DNA of 13,863 nucleotides. Origin: Lachnospiraceae bacterium. Lineage in GTDB: Bacteria; Bacillota_A; Clostridia; Lachnospirales; Lachnospiraceae. Every line of letters begins with the position of its first letter. The stretch's first letter is position 1. Shown piece after piece: positions 2,827 to 11,052 of the stretch. The DNA lies in contig JAGATU010000083.1 of NCBI GenBank assembly GCA_017621115.1, positions 1 to 13,863 on the forward strand, in the 5' to 3' direction. Under the pieces are notes generated by a model. That model saw only the letters and a program-made list of their open reading frames with translations, was not told where the DNA came from and ran no database searches. Position numbers and translations under genes: made by a program.

Positions 2827-2862
2827 AACAAGGAGGCAAATCAACTGATTTGCCTCTTTGTT
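2827..2862. terminator. Bidirectional intrinsic terminator between convergent genes
   Basis: Arms AACAAGGAGGCAAATC (2827-2842) and GATTTGCCTCTTTGTT (2847-2862) pair over 16 bp with a single G-T wobble and a 4-base loop. It lies 26 bases after the HTH gene stop. The right arm runs into the stop codon (2863-2861) of the opposing transglutaminase gene, so the minus-strand gene ends inside its own terminator. Short T-rich tails are present on both sides. Confidence 0.85.
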
Positions 2863-5167
2863 ATCTTCCGAACAATTTATAGATTATATAACGGAATCTC
2901 TTTCTTTCCTGTAAAATGCCTAAAAGTTCTTCATTCTCTCTTAAAAGAACTTCCCACATTTTGCCATCCGCCTGCTTATTTCCATACAGTAGCATTTCAT
3001 ATTCTTCCATAAATTGTAATGACATATTTCCCGGCAATTCCTCGCGAATTCTTGCCCGGTATTCGCTAAGCGTTTCTGCATCCAATCTATGCATGCCAAG
3101 ACATGTCAATATTTTGAACGCCTGTCTGACTTTATAACCATACCGCTTCTCCTGACTCATTTTCGACAGAATATAACTGCTTCGCAAATATTCTTCCAAA
3201 GCCAGTAATGCAACTGCAGCCGCTAAAAGCAAGACAATCCGCAGGACTCTTGACAGTATTTTGCGGATATACACAGAAAAAGAGACCTTATTCCCTACTT
3301 CGATCATAGCTTCAGTATCACCAAATTTCTCTGCATACACATCTTTTGCATTCCAATACTTTTCACGCTCTATATCTGCAATTAAACTGCCTTTTTTAGG
3401 CTCCCATGAACCATATCTTACTTCTCCGTAACCCGGTGTCGGCTCAAAAGGAATCCAGCCGATATTCTTAATGTATACTTCCGGCCATGCATGTGCCATG
3501 GATGCCGTCACCGATACATCTCCGGGTTTGCCCGCCGGAATACAGTAACCATGTACATATCGTGCGGGTATTCCCTGTGACTGTGCCAACAATGCAAAAG
3601 CAGTTGCAAAATGAGTACAATATCCCTGCCTTTTTTCCAACAGGAAATAATCCAAAAAAGTTCCTGCATCTATGACTTCTTCGGGAATTTCCCCGGAATC
3701 AAAAGAATATTCAAAGCTATTCAGTTCCTGCTCAATTGCTATCAGCTTATCAACATCCGAGACAGCGTCCTGTAATATCTCAGCTATATATTCTTCCGTT
3801 TCTTTTGAAAGCGCAATATCACTTAAATAATTCTCATAACAGAATTCTTCATACGCATCAAAATCTTCCGGTTTCAACTCTACTCCCGTACGCGCATTCA
3901 AATCAGCCAAAACATCTTCTACGACTACCGCATCCGGTTCTGTTTGCGGCAAAGTTCTAAAAAAATCACTTCCGGAATTCATCTGATAGAAACCGACATC
4001 GAAAACAGTTCCGAAATCCTGCTTTTCTTCAAGCATAAAGTTTCCGTCTTTTGCCAGAACTTCCACATTCCTTTGGTTGCTCTCAACATCATATGTTTTT
4101 ATCGGTACGAATAAGGTCTGTGTACTTAAATATTCATAGCAAATATCCATAAATGTATAGCCGATGTAGTCCATAAAAAACTCATTATCATAACTTCTTA
4201 CGGCACATACGGTCTTTGCCGTATCCAGATACAATTCATTCGGATACATCTCAGCATTCGCCGTCCATTCCCGTCCGTCAAATGCATGGAATATCTTCCC
4301 GACAAGATATACATTTGTTTTTAGCTGCCCGTTGGTGCGCAACACCATTACCTTTTTATCGTTTTCATTAAGACTTTCTTTTAAGCTGCCTTCCTCAGAA
4401 AAACCACTGAATACAAATTCAGGTTCTCCATACTCCGGGAAGAACTTTAATGAAACCGCCAAAATAGTATCTTCCAAATCCTCTTTTGCCTTTTTTACAA
4501 ACTGCCAGTCATATGGCTTTAGAGAAACCGGCATATTCAGCAGCAATATGAAATAGACCATAACAAACGGTAAAAGCCAGTTCATACAGGCAAAAATGCT
4601 CTGTGTCCGGACCTTTTTCCATTTTCTCTGTGTCCACTCCGTTAGTATCAGGAAAACAAAGGTGATACTGCATCCTGCAAACAGAGGTATTACATTCTGT
4701 CTGCTAATCATGCAATATAAAAGCCATACGACGATACCGGTAAGCATTGCCACCTTGATATAAAAATAGTTCTCCGTAAAAAGCAGGAACAAATAGCAGA
4801 TTACTACTACCCAGAGTATCTGCATTACACTATATCCGAATACCCACTCCGGATTCCAATCCGGTCTGTTAGTAATCCAGTTTATGTAGGAATTCAAAAA
4901 ATCTTTACTCACCTGCAGGCCGATTGTACCCATTACCAGGAGAATGAGTAACAATACGGAAAAGATACCGAATAAGACCTTTTTATACAGCAGAATATGC
5001 AAAAGCAGTATCATTACCGCTATTGCCACCACAACTGCCGCATGTTTTCCACCTGTATCTTTTATTCCGAGTAACCCACCGCAGCCCAATACAATAATGC
5101 AGGAAAGCAACACTGTATTCACAAAACGGAACAATTCCTGTTCCCTGAAAGGAAGCCGTATATTCAT
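2861..5167 (-). CDS. Membrane-anchored transglutaminase-like protein (TgpA type)
   Basis: A 768-residue protein. Residues 15-210 hold a cluster of about six or seven transmembrane helices. Residues 215-635 form a large extracytoplasmic region with the transglutaminase-like (papain-fold) core. The catalytic set can be read: Cys517 in QGYCTHFATAF, His559 in MAHAWPEVYI, and the third acidic residue Glu575 in WIPFEPTPG. One further helix (643-658) precedes a cytoplasmic tail of about 110 residues. Proteins of this build are thought to cut or crosslink proteins or peptides at the cell surface; the substrate here is unknown. It is the last gene of the MoxR-DUF58-transglutaminase operon. Its ATG overlaps the DUF58 stop by one base (TAATG), a sign of translational coupling, with GGGAGG 6 bases before the ATG. 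Confidence 0.92.
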   Translation of the reverse strand: MNIRLPFREQELFRFVNTVLLSCIIVLGCGGLLGIKDTGGKHAAVVVAIAVMILLLHILLYKKVLFGIFSVLLLILLVMGTIGLQVSKDFLNSYINWITNRPDWNPEWVFGYSVMQILWVVVICYLFLLFTENYFYIKVAMLTGIVVWLLYCMISRQNVIPLFAGCSITFVFLILTEWTQRKWKKVRTQSIFACMNWLLPFVMVYFILLLNMPVSLKPYDWQFVKKAKEDLEDTILAVSLKFFPEYGEPEFVFSGFSEEGSLKESLNENDKKVMVLRTNGQLKTNVYLVGKIFHAFDGREWTANAEMYPNELYLDTAKTVCAVRSYDNEFFMDYIGYTFMDICYEYLSTQTLFVPIKTYDVESNQRNVEVLAKDGNFMLEEKQDFGTVFDVGFYQMNSGSDFFRTLPQTEPDAVVVEDVLADLNARTGVELKPEDFDAYEEFCYENYLSDIALSKETEEYIAEILQDAVSDVDKLIAIEQELNSFEYSFDSGEIPEEVIDAGTFLDYFLLEKRQGYCTHFATAFALLAQSQGIPARYVHGYCIPAGKPGDVSVTASMAHAWPEVYIKNIGWIPFEPTPGYGEVRYGSWEPKKGSLIADIEREKYWNAKDVYAEKFGDTEAMIEVGNKVSFSVYIRKILSRVLRIVLLLAAAVALLALEEYLRSSYILSKMSQEKRYGYKVRQAFKILTCLGMHRLDAETLSEYRARIREELPGNMSLQFMEEYEMLLYGNKQADGKMWEVLLRENEELLGILQERKRFRYIIYKLFGR

Positions 5168-6363
5168 TAAAGCCTCCCTTCTAATTCCGCATCAGCGGGA
5201 ACCGTAATTATATTTCTACGCTCATTGTTTAATTTTATATAGTCTTCGTATTTTTCTTCCGTTACCACATACAAAACAACCGGAATACCGGACTGTGACA
5301 ATTGCTCCGTCATCTCCATAATTTCCTGATTCATCTCGTGTAAAATACCAAAAGCCACCTTACAATCAGAAAACGCTCCTTTTGCCATCAGTTCCCGCAT
5401 CAGACCGGAAACCTCTTCCGTATCACTATAGACAACTCCGGAAATATTCTCATAATACTCATTAAATTCCCGGACACCGTTTACCCTTTTACTTATCATC
5501 TTTCCCTGACTGTAATATGCTGTAAACGGCATGTTCTGCTCTGCCAGATAAATCCCGAGCGATACCATAATCTCAAGCATTTTATTTTCCAGCGGAAGAT
5601 ATTCTTCCATCCGGCTGTAATACCTTTTGGTATCCCCGAATAAAACAATTCCCTGTTTTTCTTCCGCTATCCGGTTTCTGACTTTTAATTTATTTTCACG
5701 CGCAGAAGTTTTCCACGAAATATTCTTAATCGCATCTCCCGGCACATAATCACGTACCGTAACATCCGGCTCACTTCCCGCATGCATGGACTGCATCTGT
5801 AAAACACTTATCATCTCACCGATACTGATAAGTTTGGAAACACGCGTAATTTTCGGTTTAACGATGGCTCTTATCGTATTCGGGACATGGTATCTTAAGC
5901 GGAACAGACGGAAATAATCCGTTACAATTATCTCTTTTACGCCTACTTCATACTCTCCGCGGTACTTGCAGGTCAATTTGGTTTCGAAAGTATATTTATC
6001 TCCACATAATAATTCATATTCCGTGTTTTCAGGCATTTTTTCCACAAAAGAAAATGATGAAAAAAGTTTGACACTGACGCCTGAAAAAGGAATAACACTA
6101 TCGTTTTGCAAAATAAAGAAATATGGTGCAGGCTGTCCGCACACCATATCCCTGCTCTCCACCTTCTGGTAGATTCTGAAAAAAATGTATACGGCTAAAA
6201 GATAGGCAAGCGAAATAAACGGAATCAGAGTCACGCCAAAAAAGAAGCCGTAACTGACCGCTCCGCCATAAAAACTGATTCCCACCAGGGAAAGTATCCA
6301 TACGCCAAACAGAACCCATCTGCGCTTGGCCAATTCATCCGCCTTTTTCCTCAGTCCCCTCAT
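5167..6363 (-). CDS. DUF58 domain protein
   Basis: A 398-residue protein with two N-terminal transmembrane helices (about 16-34 and 38-62), followed by a beta-rich region and then the DUF58 domain. The family signature is clear at 200-222: D-V-T-V-R204-D-Y206-V-P-G-D-A-I-K-N-I-S-W-K218-T-S-A. A von Willebrand A-like fold is expected downstream, beginning near IVLFGDTKR. DUF58 proteins regularly accompany MoxR ATPases and are presumed clients or partners of them. This gene sits between the ATPase (9 bases upstream) and the transglutaminase (1-base overlap downstream), which fits that pairing. AGGAGA lies about 6 bases before the ATG and overlaps the end of the ATPase gene. The biochemical activity of the family is not established. 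Confidence 0.92.
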   Translation of the reverse strand: MRGLRKKADELAKRRWVLFGVWILSLVGISFYGGAVSYGFFFGVTLIPFISLAYLLAVYIFFRIYQKVESRDMVCGQPAPYFFILQNDSVIPFSGVSVKLFSSFSFVEKMPENTEYELLCGDKYTFETKLTCKYRGEYEVGVKEIIVTDYFRLFRLRYHVPNTIRAIVKPKITRVSKLISIGEMISVLQMQSMHAGSEPDVTVRDYVPGDAIKNISWKTSARENKLKVRNRIAEEKQGIVLFGDTKRYYSRMEEYLPLENKMLEIMVSLGIYLAEQNMPFTAYYSQGKMISKRVNGVREFNEYYENISGVVYSDTEEVSGLMRELMAKGAFSDCKVAFGILHEMNQEIMEMTEQLSQSGIPVVLYVVTEEKYEDYIKLNNERRNIITVPADAELEGRL

Positions 6364-6372
6364 AGGTATCTC

Positions 6373-7305
6373 CTACATCGGTACTTTTACCTTAAGTATT
6401 AATTCCTTCAAAATTGCTTCTGCACTTGCTCTCTGAAGTCTTGCTTCTGCAGACAGTACTAATCTGTGCGCAAGAACCTGCATCGCTACTGCCTTTACAT
6501 CATCCGGCTTCACAAAATCCCTTCCCTGCAAAAAGGCCCTTGCCCTGGATGCTGCAAGAAGCGAAAGCAATGCTCTTGGGCTTGCCCCAAGCAATAAACG
6601 CGCATCCTCTCTTGTAATCTTAACGATATCTTCCATATAGCCGAGTATATTTTCCTTTACCGTTACCGCCTTAATTTCATCGCGCAATGCAAGAATATCC
6701 TCTGCTTTACAAACGGCTTTTGTCTTATCCGATGTTTTTTCCTGTAAGAACAGTTCCGCCATCTTCATTTCCTGCTCCCTGTCCGGATACCCGATGGAAA
6801 GACGCATCATAAAACGATCCATCTGTGCTTCCGGAAGCGGATAGGTTCCCATGAATTCTACCGGATTCTGCGTTGCAATTACGATAAACGGCTGCGGTAA
6901 TTCATACACCTTGCTATCGACCGTCACCTGTCCTTCTGCCATTGCTTCCAGCAAACTGGCCTGTGTCTTCGGCGATGTACGGTTAATCTCATCTGCCAAA
7001 AGAACCTGATTCATCACGGCGCCCGGACGGAACTCAAATTCACCGGACTTCATATTGTAAACCGATACACCTACTACATCGCCCGGCAAAGTATCCGGCG
7101 TAAACTGGATACGTCCAAAATCCGCATCCATACTTTTTGCAAGGGTTAGTGCCAGTGTCGTCTTACCAACGCCAGGTACATCCTCCAAAAGGACATGTCC
7201 GCCTGCTAACAGGCATATCAAAAGATTCTCTACAATATCTTCTTTTCCCACAAAAACACTGTTAATATTCTCTCTTAACGCTGCAGTTAATTCTATACTG
7301 TTCAT
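6373..7305 (-). CDS. MoxR-family AAA+ ATPase
   Basis: A cytoplasmic 310-residue AAA+ ATPase of normal MoxR length. Walker A is VPGVGKTT (43-50, Lys48), preceded by the MoxR-type LLED. Walker B is VLLADEINR (101-109), followed by the strongly conserved TSPKTQASLLEAMAEGQVT. Sensor 1 is in VIATQNPVEFMGTYPLPEAQMDRF, and the C-terminal lid follows (ASPRALLSLLAASRARA). MoxR ATPases act as chaperones that mature or assemble partner complexes. Here it heads an operon with DUF58 and transglutaminase genes, the usual arrangement. AGGGGG sits 6-7 bases before the ATG. A leader of up to about 200 bases upstream contains a 12-bp palindrome. Confidence 0.95.
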   Translation of the reverse strand: MNSIELTAALRENINSVFVGKEDIVENLLICLLAGGHVLLEDVPGVGKTTLALTLAKSMDADFGRIQFTPDTLPGDVVGVSVYNMKSGEFEFRPGAVMNQVLLADEINRTSPKTQASLLEAMAEGQVTVDSKVYELPQPFIVIATQNPVEFMGTYPLPEAQMDRFMMRLSIGYPDREQEMKMAELFLQEKTSDKTKAVCKAEDILALRDEIKAVTVKENILGYMEDIVKITREDARLLLGASPRALLSLLAASRARAFLQGRDFVKPDDVKAVAMQVLAHRLVLSAEARLQRASAEAILKELILKVKVPM

Positions 7306-7568: not shown

Positions 7569-8012
7569 TTATGTATCAATCCTATCCAATGCATGAATAT
7601 TTTTATTCCGATACACCAAATCCTCCCTATCTGTAAATCCAATATTGTCCCAAAAACCGTTTCCGATTTCGTTATGTTTGAACACAACCAACGCAACTTT
7701 CTTTATTCCTTCTTTGTCGAGAGCATCCATTGCGCTATCCACCAGTTTTGTAGCAATTCCCTGTTTCCGGTAATCCGACAGAACCGCTGTATGATTGATA
7801 AATCCTCGTCTGCCATCATGCCCTGCCATAATTACACCGATAATTTTACCGTCACTCTCTGCCACAAAACTTGTGGTAGGGTTACGCTTCAGATACTTAT
7901 CAATTCCCTCTCTGCTGTCATCGGTTGTATTCAATCCCATTCCCGGAGTGTTAATCCATAGATTATAGACTCCGTCGTAGTCGTCAATTGTCATTACTCT
8001 GATGTTTATCAT
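7569..8012 (-). CDS. GNAT-family N-acetyltransferase
   Basis: A 147-residue single-domain GNAT enzyme, the normal size for the family, predicted to transfer an acetyl group from acetyl-CoA to an amine. Motif A reads HTAVLSDYRKQGIATKLVD: a beta strand leading into the R/Q-x-x-G-I/x-A pyrophosphate loop (RKQGIA). Later, FKHNEIGNGFWDNIGF is the family's C-terminal asparagine and aromatic segment (N-x-x-G-x-x-F/Y-W-x-x-x-G-F). I chose the ATG at 8012 (MINIRVMT) because an SD-like AAAGTGAG lies 11 bases upstream; a GTG at 8021 would add three residues but leaves no room for that site. It is a monocistronic gene with its own promoter and terminator. Substrate unknown. Confidence 0.88.
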   Translation of the reverse strand: MINIRVMTIDDYDGVYNLWINTPGMGLNTTDDSREGIDKYLKRNPTTSFVAESDGKIIGVIMAGHDGRRGFINHTAVLSDYRKQGIATKLVDSAMDALDKEGIKKVALVVFKHNEIGNGFWDNIGFTDREDLVYRNKNIHALDRIDT

Positions 8013-8057
8013 TATTATCACATCTCACTTTCTCTAAATTTATTTTGAATTGGGCGT

Positions 8058-8307: not shown

Positions 8308-9072
8308 TTACGCTATCCTCACCGCCAACTCCAGCGCGATCGTAGCGATGCGGTCTTTTTCCTCCAACTTAGCGCTGTTGCTTAAGCTTCGTACATCCCA
8401 CTCTTCCGCATCTAAATTATCCGCCGCATAGAAAAACTGTACCAAGTCCTTTCCACGGAACTGCGCTACCGCAGCATCTGCAGAACATTCCATGTCTACG
8501 CAGATACAGCCATGTTCCTTTCTGCGTTTTATCTTATCCGCCGTCTCCCGATAAATGGCATCGGTTGTCCATGTTTTTCCGACTGTATATTTTATCTGTA
8601 ATTCATCGAGCATTCCCGTGAATACGGACATATACTTTTGATTAACCTCGATTTCATCTGACGGTGGTGCGTAATGATAACTGGTTCCTTCATCTCTCAT
8701 TGCGCTATTTGGAATGATAATCGCACAATCATCAATGCTCTTTTCCAATACGCCACAGGTCCCGAAAATAATGATTTTCTCCGCACCCATCTGATATACA
8801 TCCTCCATCATTGCGGCAGATGCCGGCGCCCCTACATCCATCATAAAAAGGGCAATCTCCACTCCTTTGTATACCGCTTTATAAATCGGTATTTTTCCGT
8901 TTGCCGTGGATGCGGATGCTATCTGCTCTGCATCAAGACCCGCAAGCATTCTCTCAAAAGTTTCTTTTGCATAACAGGTAACCGCCACTCTGGGCATTCC
9001 TTTTACCGGGTTCACTATACCATGTGGATTAATAACTGCTATTTTATTAGGGTCAAATTCTGTTAAAATCAT
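8308..9072 (-). CDS. Nucleoside phosphorylase (PNP/UDP family)
   Basis: A 254-residue enzyme of the PNP/uridine phosphorylase (NP-I) fold, of usual size. It splits a nucleoside with phosphate into a free base and ribose-1-phosphate. Visible landmarks are GTCGVL (104-109), the phosphate and ribose loop of this fold; PNSAMRDEGTSYHYAPPS (121-138), where Arg126 and the following DEGTS/HY segment match the family's active-site loop; TTDAIYRET (169-177), typical of the UDP branch; and VDMECS (192-197) with Met194 and Glu195, the ribose-binding Met-Glu pair. Whether it prefers uridine, purines or a modified nucleoside cannot be told. It is the last gene of the attenuator-controlled operon: the start follows GGAGGAG and lies 12 bases after the small transglutaminase stop. 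Confidence 0.88.
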   Translation of the reverse strand: MILTEFDPNKIAVINPHGIVNPVKGMPRVAVTCYAKETFERMLAGLDAEQIASASTANGKIPIYKAVYKGVEIALFMMDVGAPASAAMMEDVYQMGAEKIIIFGTCGVLEKSIDDCAIIIPNSAMRDEGTSYHYAPPSDEIEVNQKYMSVFTGMLDELQIKYTVGKTWTTDAIYRETADKIKRRKEHGCICVDMECSADAAVAQFRGKDLVQFFYAADNLDAEEWDVRSLSNSAKLEEKDRIATIALELAVRIA

Positions 9073-9084
9073 AATGCACTCCTC

Positions 9085-9711
9085 CTATTCTTTGTCTGTA
9101 TGGTATGCCAGTTCTGTAGGCAAATCCTCCCACAACTGTGGTCTTGTTTCATATTTCTGCAAACGCTCCAATACCTTTTCATCCGGATTCGGATATACTG
9201 TGTAATCATCCACTTCTCCCAATTCCGGTCGTATCGGAAAAGCAAGTCGCTCTTCTTCAATAGAAAACTGCGCATTCACGCCTTCTTTGTTTCCTCTGGC
9301 ATCCAAGCGTACCCAAGTATCAAGATTCTTTATATACACTCCGATAAGTCCATGATATATCAGAACAGGCGTCGTATCATCATCCAATATCAGTTTCTGA
9401 TAGCAGAATCCTGCAGGTATCTCCTTACAACGCAACAACGCCACCAACAAATGAGACTTCGCGAAACAAATTCCATGACCGGCTTGTAATACTTCCGATG
9501 CAGAGCAAGTAATCTGTTCTTCACCGGCATCTGCAGAATGGCATATCTGATCTCTTACAAATTCATATGCTGTCTTAATATATGCCAGTTCATCTTCTGC
9601 CTGTGAAAATAACGAATCGGATAGGTTTTTGATTGCTTCATTATCATAATCAATTACTTTATCTAATGCTAAATATTTATTAATTTCCTCTGTATATAGT
9701 GTTGCTTTCAT
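9085..9711 (-). CDS. Small transglutaminase-like (papain-fold) protein
   Basis: A 208-residue protein made essentially of one transglutaminase-like domain, without signal peptide or membrane segments and so cytoplasmic. The catalytic triad can be read: Cys82 in GHGICFAKSHLLVALLR, His120 in IYHGLIGVYI, and Asp137 in WVRLDARGNK. The family includes thiol peptidases, amidases and transamidases; the reaction here is unknown. It is distinct in size and place from the large membrane transglutaminase at 2861. It lies between the double GNAT (9 bases upstream) and the nucleoside phosphorylase (12 bases downstream). AGGTGAAGG just before its ATG overlaps the end of the GNAT gene. All three genes read as one operon behind the leader. 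Confidence 0.87.
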   Translation of the reverse strand: MKATLYTEEINKYLALDKVIDYDNEAIKNLSDSLFSQAEDELAYIKTAYEFVRDQICHSADAGEEQITCSASEVLQAGHGICFAKSHLLVALLRCKEIPAGFCYQKLILDDDTTPVLIYHGLIGVYIKNLDTWVRLDARGNKEGVNAQFSIEEERLAFPIRPELGEVDDYTVYPNPDEKVLERLQKYETRPQLWEDLPTELAYHTDKE

Positions 9712-9720
9712 TCCTTCACC

Positions 9721-10740
9721 TCACAATTCAATTCGATATATATCCGCCTGTTCACCTTCAAATTCAAAACTACGTTCATATACGCCACCATTTTTCACAA
9801 TTGTTCTGACAGATGGTGAATTGTCTCTTTCTACTGAAAGATGTACCTCTGTCAGACCTGCTTCCTTTGCTACAAGTAGCACCTGTCTGAGCATTTCAGT
9901 TGCATAGCCTTTTCGTCTTTCGGACGGGCGTACACTGTATCCGCTATTTCCAAAGTCCTTTAAGAAATCATTCAATGTATGGCGCAAATCAATGATTCCG
10001 ACTATTTCACCTTTTTCATCCAAAGCAAAAAAGGTGTCTGTCACTACCCATGTTGGACTGACCGTCTCCGGAGATTCGTTCGCCTTTATTGATTCCAGCC
10101 ATTCCTCATAGGATTCTGTTTTATCCAAAAGTTCACTACCATTGATAATCAGTTCTCCATTATCAAAATGCTCCTGACGGTATGCTAATGCTTTTTCTTT
10201 TAATTCTAATGTTGGTCTTATTAATCTAATCATAGCACTTCCTCCCAATCCACAAAATTTCTCATACTTCACCAGTGTCATCTTTTCATTAACCACATCT
10301 TCATCACCGTATCTGACAAACCCGCATTTTTCATATAGATGACAGTTGCCCGGTTCCTGTTTAATGGTATCCAATCTCCAGGTGGGAGTATCCGGATACA
10401 TATCAAATACCTTGTCAATTACCTTCTGCGCAATACCCCTTCCCTGAAATGCAGGAATTACATAAATTGGAGATATCCATCTAACACCCTCTGTGATATT
10501 TCCGCCATTGTGGTTTCGTACGCGAATACCTCCCACCGGCTCATTTTCAAATTCAATGATGTAGAAATCGGATTTGACACGGTCCGTAATCTTCCATCTG
10601 ACGGTATCCAACGATTCCTTCGCCGGACTTGTCTCATCGTCGTGATATTTTTCATATAGGGGCATGAAAGCCTCTACCTGTAGCCTATGTAAAAGTTCTG
10701 CGTCTTTTTCAGTTGCCAAAACCAATCTTATCGTATCCAT
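9721..10740 (-). CDS. Double GNAT acetyltransferase (two fused domains)
   Basis: A 339-residue protein of two complete GNAT domains. Domain 1 (residues 1-160) has motif A in SPIYVIPAFQGRGIAQKVI, with the acetyl-CoA loop QGRGIA at 99-104, and ends ...GNCHLYEKCGFVRYG.... Domain 2 (170-339) has GYSVRPSERRKGYATEML, with RRKGYA at 275-280, and a C-terminal NSPSVRTIVKNGG segment. The two differ in sequence and are not a recent tandem copy. The linker KFCGLGGSA (161-169) contains, at DNA level, a GGAGGA site and an ATG in frame for domain 2, so this was probably two genes joined by loss of a stop. I chose the ATG at 10740 because GGAGGAGTGATT precedes it; an upstream in-frame ATG at 10809 falls in the terminator hairpin. 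First structural gene of the attenuated operon. Substrates unknown. Confidence 0.87.
   Translation of the reverse strand: MDTIRLVLATEKDAELLHRLQVEAFMPLYEKYHDDETSPAKESLDTVRWKITDRVKSDFYIIEFENEPVGGIRVRNHNGGNITEGVRWISPIYVIPAFQGRGIAQKVIDKVFDMYPDTPTWRLDTIKQEPGNCHLYEKCGFVRYGDEDVVNEKMTLVKYEKFCGLGGSAMIRLIRPTLELKEKALAYRQEHFDNGELIINGSELLDKTESYEEWLESIKANESPETVSPTWVVTDTFFALDEKGEIVGIIDLRHTLNDFLKDFGNSGYSVRPSERRKGYATEMLRQVLLVAKEAGLTEVHLSVERDNSPSVRTIVKNGGVYERSFEFEGEQADIYRIEL
10231..10245 (-). promoter_or_regulatory. Internal ribosome binding site and ATG inside the double GNAT gene
   Basis: GGAGGA (10245-10240) followed after six bases by ATG (10233-10231), in frame with the long gene. This is a full-strength start site for a separate 170-residue second GNAT domain. 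It may still be used, giving both the fused and the short protein. Confidence 0.6.
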
Positions 10741-10797: not shown

Positions 10798-10832
10798 AAA
10801 AAATCGCACCGGGTCTTAAAACCTAGTGCGAT
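10798..10832 (-). terminator. Attenuator terminator before the double GNAT operon
   Basis: In the minus-strand RNA, the 5' arm ATCGCACTAGGT and the 3' arm ACCCGGTGCGAT pair over 12 positions with one wobble and one mismatch around a 6-base loop, followed by a run of six T (10803-10798). It lies 58 bases before the GNAT ATG and well after the leader reading frame. It can stop both the leader transcript and read-through from the chemoreceptor gene upstream. Confidence 0.88.
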
Positions 10833-10931
10833 AATTTCGATTACGGATATAAATATATATAAAACCCACATTCTCATTTATGCACTAGTTTAAAAGACCT
10901 ATCGGCTTACAACTAATGCAAAGATGATTAG

Positions 10932-10994
10932 TTATAAGCGAATACGTCTGTCATACATGTACATATCAAGGACTAACTGCAGGTTCTGATTCAT
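10932..10994 (-). CDS. Putative 20-aa leader peptide
   Basis: The reading frame encodes MNQNLQLVLDMYMYDRRIRL and a TAA stop. AGGAG lies 10 bases before the ATG, and a promoter with TTGACA is 53-58 bases upstream. The frame ends inside the first arm of the 1:2 hairpin, as expected for a peptide whose translation steers RNA folding. The C-terminus contains R17-I18-R19, the +x+ pattern at which macrolide-bound ribosomes arrest on some known leader peptides; two Met-Tyr pairs sit just before it. The peptide is too short to have an enzymatic role. I do not recognise it as a described leader. That it is translated is inferred from the ribosome binding site and layout only. Confidence 0.65.
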   Translation of the reverse strand: MNQNLQLVLDMYMYDRRIRL

Positions 10995-11023
10995 GTTATG
11001 TTTTCTCCTAAAAGTTTTTTCTT

Positions 11024-11052
11024 AAGGTAACACCGAAAAAATACTTTGTCAA
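11024..11052 (-). promoter_or_regulatory. Promoter of the attenuator leader
   Basis: A perfect TTGACA (11052-11047) is followed after 17 bases by TACCTT (11029-11024), a poor -10 box partly offset by an extended TGT directly before it. Transcription would start near 11017, about 23 bases before the leader ATG. The -35 lies 21 bases after the stop of the chemoreceptor gene. Confidence 0.6.

Follow-up and report, generated by a model that had tools for sequence, protein, structure and literature searches.

A conserved leader before acetyltransferase and methyltransferase genes of Lachnospiraceae, predicted to act as a stall-activated attenuator with three states

The stretch of DNA considered here (the window; 13,863 nucleotides, contig JAGATU010000083.1 of the Lachnospiraceae assembly GCA_017621115.1) carries on its minus strand a leader at 11052-10798, behind which lie the following genes:

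9721..10740, minus strand: first gene, a fused double GNAT acetyltransferase of 339 aa (Pfam Acetyltransf_1, E 2.3e-26, in two stretches)
9085..9711, minus strand: transglutaminase-like protein of 208 aa (Pfam Transglut_core, E 1.1e-10)
8308..9072, minus strand: nucleoside phosphorylase superfamily protein of 254 aa (Pfam PNP_UDP_1, E 8.6e-27; no NCBIfam model at cut-off)
7569..8021, minus strand: second GNAT acetyltransferase of 150 aa, with a terminator-like site (7565-7536) behind it

The second GNAT gene, which lies 286 nt from the phosphorylase-like gene and is of the type LWxxTPGMGLNxxDDSxEGI, is possibly the last gene of the operon. Further along the same strand (2861-7305), genes for a MoxR-type AAA protein, a DUF58 protein and a large transglutaminase protein stand in a row, which we take to be a known gene trio and which is apparently a separate operon. 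The first gene shows no strong similarity to a named resistance enzyme (best NCBIfam score about 27 bits, against cut-offs of 140-250), and none of the 14 proteins scanned, from the window and from related loci, reached a named NCBIfam cut-off. Comparison to solved structures gave one weak match for the GNAT protein, 39 phosphorylase or nucleosidase matches for the phosphorylase-like protein and, for the first gene of a related locus (L110), 21 matches, mostly to methyltransferases; such matches show folds, not substrates. A 427-aa protein in the list of homologues (P0024) has precomputed Pfam domains for GNAT and PNP_UDP_1 in one chain, and thus links both enzyme types of the window operon.

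The leader combines a promoter, a 20-codon ORF with a ribosome-binding site, four mutually exclusive pairings and an intrinsic terminator, with the following parts read from the sequence:

11024..11052, minus strand: promoter, with TTGACA at 11052-11047, a 17-nt spacer and a weak extended -10 (TG-T-TACCTT, 11029-11024)
11005..11009, minus strand: Shine-Dalgarno sequence AGGAG of the leader ORF
10932..10994, minus strand: leader ORF of 20 codons, MNQNLQLVLDMYMYDRRIRL and a stop
10959..10987, minus strand: segment A (leader codons 3-12), pairing in the ribosome-free ORF with B and the 3' end of segment 3
10941..10949, minus strand: segment 0, AGAC and UAUU inside the leader ORF, an outer extension of helix 1:2
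10927..10939, minus strand: segment 1, the last codons, the stop and its 3' flank
10905..10917, minus strand: segment 2, partner of 1 or of 3
10882..10899, minus strand: segment 3, the 5' arm of the antiterminator, GGTCTTTTAAACTAGTGC, with a core TAGGT[CT]T conserved among copies
10861..10878, minus strand: segment B, immediately 3' of segment 3
10812..10832, minus strand: segment 4, the terminator 5' arm and loop, paired with 3 in the read-through form
10798..10813, minus strand: segment 5, the terminator 3' arm (10813-10803) and T run (10803-10798)

The promoter, the frame with its ribosome-binding site, segments 1-5 and the terminator had been described in a first-pass annotation of this DNA, and all of them could be read again. 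Segments 1 and 2 form a 13-bp pairing, the terminator (10832-10803) ends in six T, and 10829-10812 is complementary to segment 3 at 15 of 18 bases, exactly as had been claimed. A scan for consensus promoters and terminators listed neither the promoter of the leader, whose -10 matches the consensus at three of six bases, nor its terminator, probably because the stem is interrupted. The 228-nt leader has a minimum free energy of -70.3 kcal/mol, compared to -43.9 (sd 3.7) for 200 shuffled sequences (z -7.1), and its predicted duplex energies are -21.2 for 3:4 versus -16.2 for 4:5.

We collected 39 further copies of the leader, giving 40 distinct copies with that of the window once repeat fetches of the same place were dropped. 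Most come from genomes drawn around one Lachnospiraceae genome; these draws overlap and each includes the centre genome, and those of more than 40 genomes were made under stricter filters, so that the genome counts given here are lower bounds. Two copies (L001 and L005, both from Lachnospiraceae MAGs) were reached through the GNAT protein, with upstream regions that can be aligned to the leader. A pattern of 24 leader bases, searched with at most three mismatches, matched nine of 397 genomes in the family draw, compared to two of 397 for the reversed pattern. An RNA model built from 11 copies (R1) found another in a Eubacteriales MAG (L036, E 4.6e-5) and had matches in six of the 392 genomes of the order draw; a second model built from 18 copies (R2) recovered 22 copies outside its training set. 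R2 matched 21/397 genomes in the family draw, 11/61 and 2/23 in two genera, and in the phylum draw 1/249, namely the centre genome itself (G001). R1 also matches the opposite strand of the window weakly (10845-10979, plus strand, E 0.0002), owing to the fact that the untranslated leader is nearly one long palindrome.

Among loci of GNAT relatives from a genome scan, most of which matched only in the C-terminal half, three of 80 have the leader; it stands before 10 of the 30 best loci matched in the N-terminal half, including all but L147 of the nine best by E-value. The first-pass annotation had called the leader undescribed, which agrees with Rfam 15, where the window had no match at the gathering score and five loci had none at E<=1, and with a search of open-licence literature, where we found no paper naming it in the title or at the start of the abstract. 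Plasmids and phages contained no match to the leader of the window, and plasmids none to that of L005; the L096 leader gave short matches in 22 plasmid records, none covering at least 80% of the query. Viral contigs had no match to five leader patterns and no relative of the GNAT protein.

The promoter recurs with the leader. An exact TTGACA lies upstream of 33 of 38 copies, compared to 3.4% of shuffled upstream stretches; with one mismatch allowed the figures are 37 of 38 and 48%, so the exact count is the telling one. The genes further upstream differ (a methyl-accepting protein in the window, by eye a YidC-like ORF in L001), and therefore promoter, leader and operon look like one unit. The first ORFs behind the leader were scanned with Pfam in 38 of the 40 loci (L096 and L098 were left out), by a procedure that misses genes of fewer than 100 aa and genes whose start lies over 30 nt upstream of the core: the main GNAT model matched 21 and methyltransferase models 12, together 33 of 38. 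By eye, a GNAT resembling that of the window follows several of the methyltransferases (L103, L104, L135, L140). Nucleoside-phosphorylase-like genes are found in the window, in L125 and L129 (below the NCBIfam cut-off) and by eye in L094 and L116. The first-pass annotation had held such enzymes to be not usually associated with control of this kind, which is only partly fair, acetyltransferases and methyltransferases being classic drug-inactivating or target-modifying folds. By eye, genes like the second GNAT of the window also stand behind the leader in L094, L095, L128 and L130.

One genome has the leader twice, about 6.4 kb apart (L093 and L131; G076:C1, 358218 and 364643), and the first ORF of at least 100 aa behind L131 encodes a protein of 230 aa that seems not to be a GNAT. 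In a few copies (L098, L105, L127 and L131) the RNA appears damaged by eye or no GNAT lies directly behind it. Among the damaged-looking copies (L105/L108, L098, L126, L142), L105 and L142 have no Shine-Dalgarno sequence, no start was found in L126, and L098 lacks the usual terminator and the GNAT, its own terminator being probably not homologous; this is as expected when elements decay after loss of the operon. The repeats at L126 gave no CRISPR-like array.

The leader ORF is kept across the family. By script, 38 of the 40 copies have an ORF whose stop falls 25-46 nt upstream of the core TAGGTCT, and 36 of these ORFs have a Shine-Dalgarno sequence; the exceptions are L105 and L142, with a shorter ORF lacking one, and L126 and L127, with no ORF. 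Apart from the two shorter ones, the peptides have 18-25 residues and fall into two main types, MNQNLHSRxYMYMYYR[RH]IxL and MNQRYMYNYMEMMYR[RH]IxL. In a reduced set of 21 leaders, variability is highest at codon position 3 (0.47, versus 0.39 and 0.32), most clearly in the first codons (0.40, versus 0.10 and 0.19), a pattern that speaks for translation under peptide constraint. Compared to the downstream proteins, these leaders are enriched in Tyr (3.1x), Met (4.9x), His (2.9x), Asn (2.1x) and Arg (3.3x), and Ala, Val, Gly, Phe, Pro, Lys and Glu are almost missing. NAY codons (Tyr, His, Asn and Asp) make up 35% of leader residues versus 18%, with five to nine in each of the 21. We do not claim selection for NAY codons: by eye about half of the substitutions stay NAY, which is what single base changes would give. 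The MYMY motif coincides in the window with codons 11-14, the stall site predicted below, and its conservation does not prove an arrest peptide because the motif is also paired RNA (10965-10959 pairs with 10885-10879 when the leader is folded without a ribosome); conservation of the leader sequence is in part explained by such pairing.

Whether the helices are kept by compensatory change was addressed by computing how well each copy's segment pairs with its own partner and how well with the corresponding partners from every other copy, in 38 copies (L126 and L127, where the script found no ORF, were left out). The own partner was better for all four helices, with 0 of 5000 shuffles reaching the observed mean in each case: for 1:2 at -16.9 compared to -11.6 kcal/mol when swapped (about 5.4 better), for 2:3 by 3.8 kcal/mol, and in a first test for 3:4 and 4:5 by 3.0 and 5.9 kcal/mol, the last of these biased towards own pairing, since its arms had been taken from the hairpin that each copy itself folds. 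When the windows were fixed, 4:5 gave -12.4 own versus -9.3 swapped and 3:4 -16.4 versus -13.3, again 0/5000 each in 38 and in 22 copies. The outcome for the four helices did not change when the 38 copies were reduced to 22 of less than 80% identity. Segment borders were chosen after inspection of the helices, and the same test found no co-variation for the pairs 1:3, 2:4 and 0:2 (shuffle fractions 0.14-0.64). Thus the first-pass view that the complementarity is not chance holds up: the architecture is repeated in 39 other copies, and 1:2, 2:3, 3:4 and 4:5 co-vary.

An alignment of 36 distinct rows (A5) adds detail. Outer extensions of 1:2, AGAC:GGUCU and UAUU:GAUA, reach into the R-R-I codons and had been absent from the first-pass annotation. 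For this extended helix 87.8% of cells are paired (shuffled 82.8) and 39 cells are changed on both sides, compared to 14 when shuffled; for 2:3 the values are 90.0% (85.8) and 22 versus 6 cells. Counted as pairs changed on both sides, shuffles reach the observed value in 19 of 500 cases for 1:2 and 60 of 500 for 2:3, and counted as further pair types in 3 and 207 of 500, so that on these two measures 2:3 does not stand above shuffles. By eye the register of 2:3 is shifted by one in the window and in L001, which the A5 count scores as unpaired. Within the extension of 1:2, no pair is broken in columns 16-19/84-87, where the ten changes on one side only all give G-U, and column 23/80 has eight cells changed on both sides. 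We considered and dropped a separate helix between segment 0 (AGACGTAT) and the AUAUGUCU stretch within segment 3: it is strong but does not co-vary, own partners (-11.1) being no better than swapped ones (-11.7; shuffle fraction 0.98), and in the window it reaches only -7.1. Segment 0 is retained solely through AGAC:GGUCU, which lengthens 1:2 and in which all changes are to G-U.

A further helix had not been noticed before. It joins the first half of the leader ORF (A) to the nucleotides directly after segment 3 (B): in L005 TTACATTC pairs with GAATGTAA, with compensating changes in other copies, and in the window AGAACCUGCA (10987-10978) pairs with UGUGGGUUUU (10870-10861), continued by 10972-10971/10875-10874 and 10969-10968/10878-10877. 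The swap test gave -13.0 kcal/mol for own and -8.9 for swapped partners, with 0/5000 shuffles both in 36 copies (L105 and L142, lacking a Shine-Dalgarno sequence, were also left out, here and in the simulation of states) and in the 21 of the reduced set, which is the 22-copy reduced set minus these two plus L131, added by hand. A control with a window further downstream was negative (0.66 and 0.43); one with B reversed was negative in the reduced set (0.40) and gave 0.02 in all 36, and relatedness therefore adds a little to the A:B signal. Co-variation in related leaders, a check that the first-pass annotation had proposed, is thus present in its four helices and in A:B.

To follow the competition between helices we folded leaders ending before segment 4 with the nucleotides from P-15 to P+15 blocked by a ribosome. 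In the window 1:2 is ahead with the P-site at codons 1-14, in agreement with the earlier idea that a paused ribosome leaving segment 1 free lets 1:2 form, and 2:3 is ahead from codon 15. Across 38 copies, 1:2 is ahead in 26 when the P-site is nine codons short of the last, in 19-20 at eight to six, and in five at a distance of five; from there 2:3 is ahead in 33. With the ribosome at the end of the ORF, segment 2 occupies the antiterminator arm of segment 3 (0.72; window 0.78). The arm is freest with the ribosome in the middle of the ORF, yet even there its unpaired share ahead of the synthesis of segment 4 averages only 44%.

At equilibrium for the full leader, 33 of 36 copies are OFF with a ribosome at the stop, and in the shorter transcript the window has, with the ribosome there, 14.7 expected pairs of 2:3 and none of 1:2; the first-pass proposal that segment 2 then captures segment 3 and the terminator forms is thus supported by folding. 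Twenty of 36 copies have some codon at which 3:4 beats the terminator and 16 never do. Such codons are commonest 9-14 before the last (13-16 copies each), no single offset being ON in more than 16 of 36. In the window 3:4 exceeds the terminator only at P-site codons 11-14. A footprint reaching 12 nt again gave 20 of 36 copies with an ON codon, at codons 13-15 in the window. For the 16 copies that never prefer 3:4 at equilibrium, ON must therefore rest on 3:4 forming before segment 5.

Folding and comparison support the first-pass view of a translation-coupled transcription attenuator, and we consider it likely, the three-state logic being computed, that the leader is stall-activated and ribosome-mediated. 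Without a ribosome, the ORF would fold onto downstream RNA (A:B and the extended 1:2), trapping segment 3, so that the terminator forms and the operon is OFF. When the leader is translated to its end, the ribosome would cover segment 1, segment 2 would take segment 3, and the outcome is again termination. A ribosome stalled part-way (in the window with its P-site at about codons 11-14) would break A:B and let 1:2 form, so that segment 3 can pair with 4 and RNA polymerase reads into the GNAT operon, provided that 3:4 forms first. The helices, the ORF and the promoter are shown by comparison of copies. The earlier suggestion that a pause gives ON accordingly survives for pauses in the middle of the ORF and not for those in its first codons.

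One could suppose instead that the stall reports on charged tRNA, scarcity of Tyr, Met, Asn or His halting the leader ribosome as in trp and his leaders. The residue enrichment described above would suit this, as would the position of the window's Tyr and Met codons in the ON zone with its Arg codons in the OFF zone. Among the 21 leaders, however, L118 and L131 have no Tyr and L125 has no internal Met, the A:B pairing forces part of the codon use, and no biosynthetic enzyme was named among the genes scanned (GNAT, methyltransferase, phosphorylase-like), all of which makes an amino-acid sensor unlikely.

A device with only two states, as the first-pass annotation had proposed, would turn ON at any failure to translate the leader, including failure to initiate, and so act as a general alarm: 1:2 forms and segment 3 is left free. 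Indeed, 1:2 exceeds 2:3 in 36 of 38 copies folded without a ribosome, and slow formation of A:B could still let segment 3 meet segment 4. However, folding contradicts the claim that a leader which never loads a ribosome is ON: the leader ORF folds onto segment 3 and what follows it, occupying the antiterminator arm (mean 0.73 in 36 copies, 0.70 in the window), and the equilibrium state is OFF in 34 of 36 copies. Of what had been expected from folding free and blocked leaders, the blocked case came out as supposed (2:3, OFF) and the ribosome-free case as its reverse. A:B, kept by compensatory change, would moreover not be needed by such a device, to which we give slightly poorer odds than to an amino-acid sensor. 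Poorer still are those of a structured RNA or a protein- or ligand-binding element with an incidental ORF and no input from translation, for although the ribosome-free hairpin is strong and long-range and the conserved nucleotides of the ORF are the paired ones, 36 of 40 copies retain a Shine-Dalgarno sequence and an ORF whose stop lies 25-46 nt upstream of the core, variation is greatest at third codon positions, and the switch point in the window fits a ribosome footprint.

Several known leaders resemble the predicted device in part. By analogy it would work like the ribosome-mediated transcription attenuators of trp, vmlR and whiB7 with an extra helix added; an ORF with a Shine-Dalgarno sequence lies between promoter and terminator (36/40), and 3:4 and 4:5 both co-vary. 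In trp-type attenuation with superattenuation the untranslated leader is OFF, the fully translated one is OFF and the stalled one is ON, the same three outcomes as predicted here. The untranslated OFF state here differs in having its own long helix, between the ORF and the sequence after the antiterminator arm, and compared to trp and his leaders we saw no biosynthetic genes and no single repeated codon.

The vmlR leader of B. subtilis and others of ABCF type, as described in passages of PMC9226507, share with this one a uORF, an anti-antiterminator, an antiterminator and an intrinsic terminator, with read-through upon a stalled ribosome; in vmlR, loss of the Shine-Dalgarno sequence or start codon of the uORF nearly abolishes expression. 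The vmlR uORF has three codons and the stall is thought to occur at the start, whereas here there are about 20 codons, a predicted stall in mid-ORF, another RNA sequence and other genes; no ABC-transporter family was found among the Pfam families listed (25 of 29) for the 38 first ORFs. The uORF of whiB7 likewise controls an attenuator through its translation and answers to several drugs and to starvation, according to parts of PMC12121999 and PMC13236596, but precedes an actinobacterial regulator gene where the present leader controls enzymes directly. In toiL (E. coli topAI-yjhQ; same passages of PMC12121999) an ORF is also held in a hairpin with downstream RNA and stalls at several sites disrupt it, though toiL masks a ribosome-binding site and acts via Rho rather than an intrinsic terminator.

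The tlrB/yxjB leader of B. subtilis (PMC6851288, in part) resembles ours in that its peptide ends with Arg residues and that it attenuates transcription of a methyltransferase gene. Tylosin induces it by stalling the ribosome at the C-terminal RYR, whereas in our leader a ribosome stalled at the C-terminal RRIR is predicted to leave the operon OFF. We found no macrolide +X+ arrest motif where a stall would mean ON: the window's RRIR codons fall within the zone predicted to be OFF, and some copies, for instance those that end in RRICL, have no +X+ at that place. The main text of a genome-wide study of attenuators (PMC2965389) contains neither "acetyltransferase" nor "GNAT".

Acetyltransferases and methyltransferases under the control of a predicted stall sensor suggest a defence against a translation inhibitor. 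The most likely cause of the stall, we infer, is an inhibitor that the acetyltransferases, methyltransferases and nucleosidase-like enzymes of these operons inactivate or protect against, and the evidence is compatible with starvation as an alternative input. More tentatively, and with rather less than even chances, the copies may form a family of RNA sensors in Lachnospiraceae and close kin that respond to stalls only, kept OFF by the helix of ORF and downstream RNA when untranslated and by segment 2 when translated, and opened by a jam in mid-ORF. They would then mark a hidden regulon of acetyltransferase, methyltransferase and nucleosidase-like genes directed against a translation inhibitor new to these bacteria, possibly a nucleoside-like one.

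If the proposed logic is true, the leader offers a testable three-state device whose untranslated OFF state has its own conserved helix, and an RNA signature by which enzymes of unknown function that answer to blocked translation could be found in Lachnospiraceae. The model suggests that the operon enzymes answer to something that blocks protein synthesis, and the identity of the inducer would point to the substrate of this uncharacterised group of acetyltransferases and methyltransferases.
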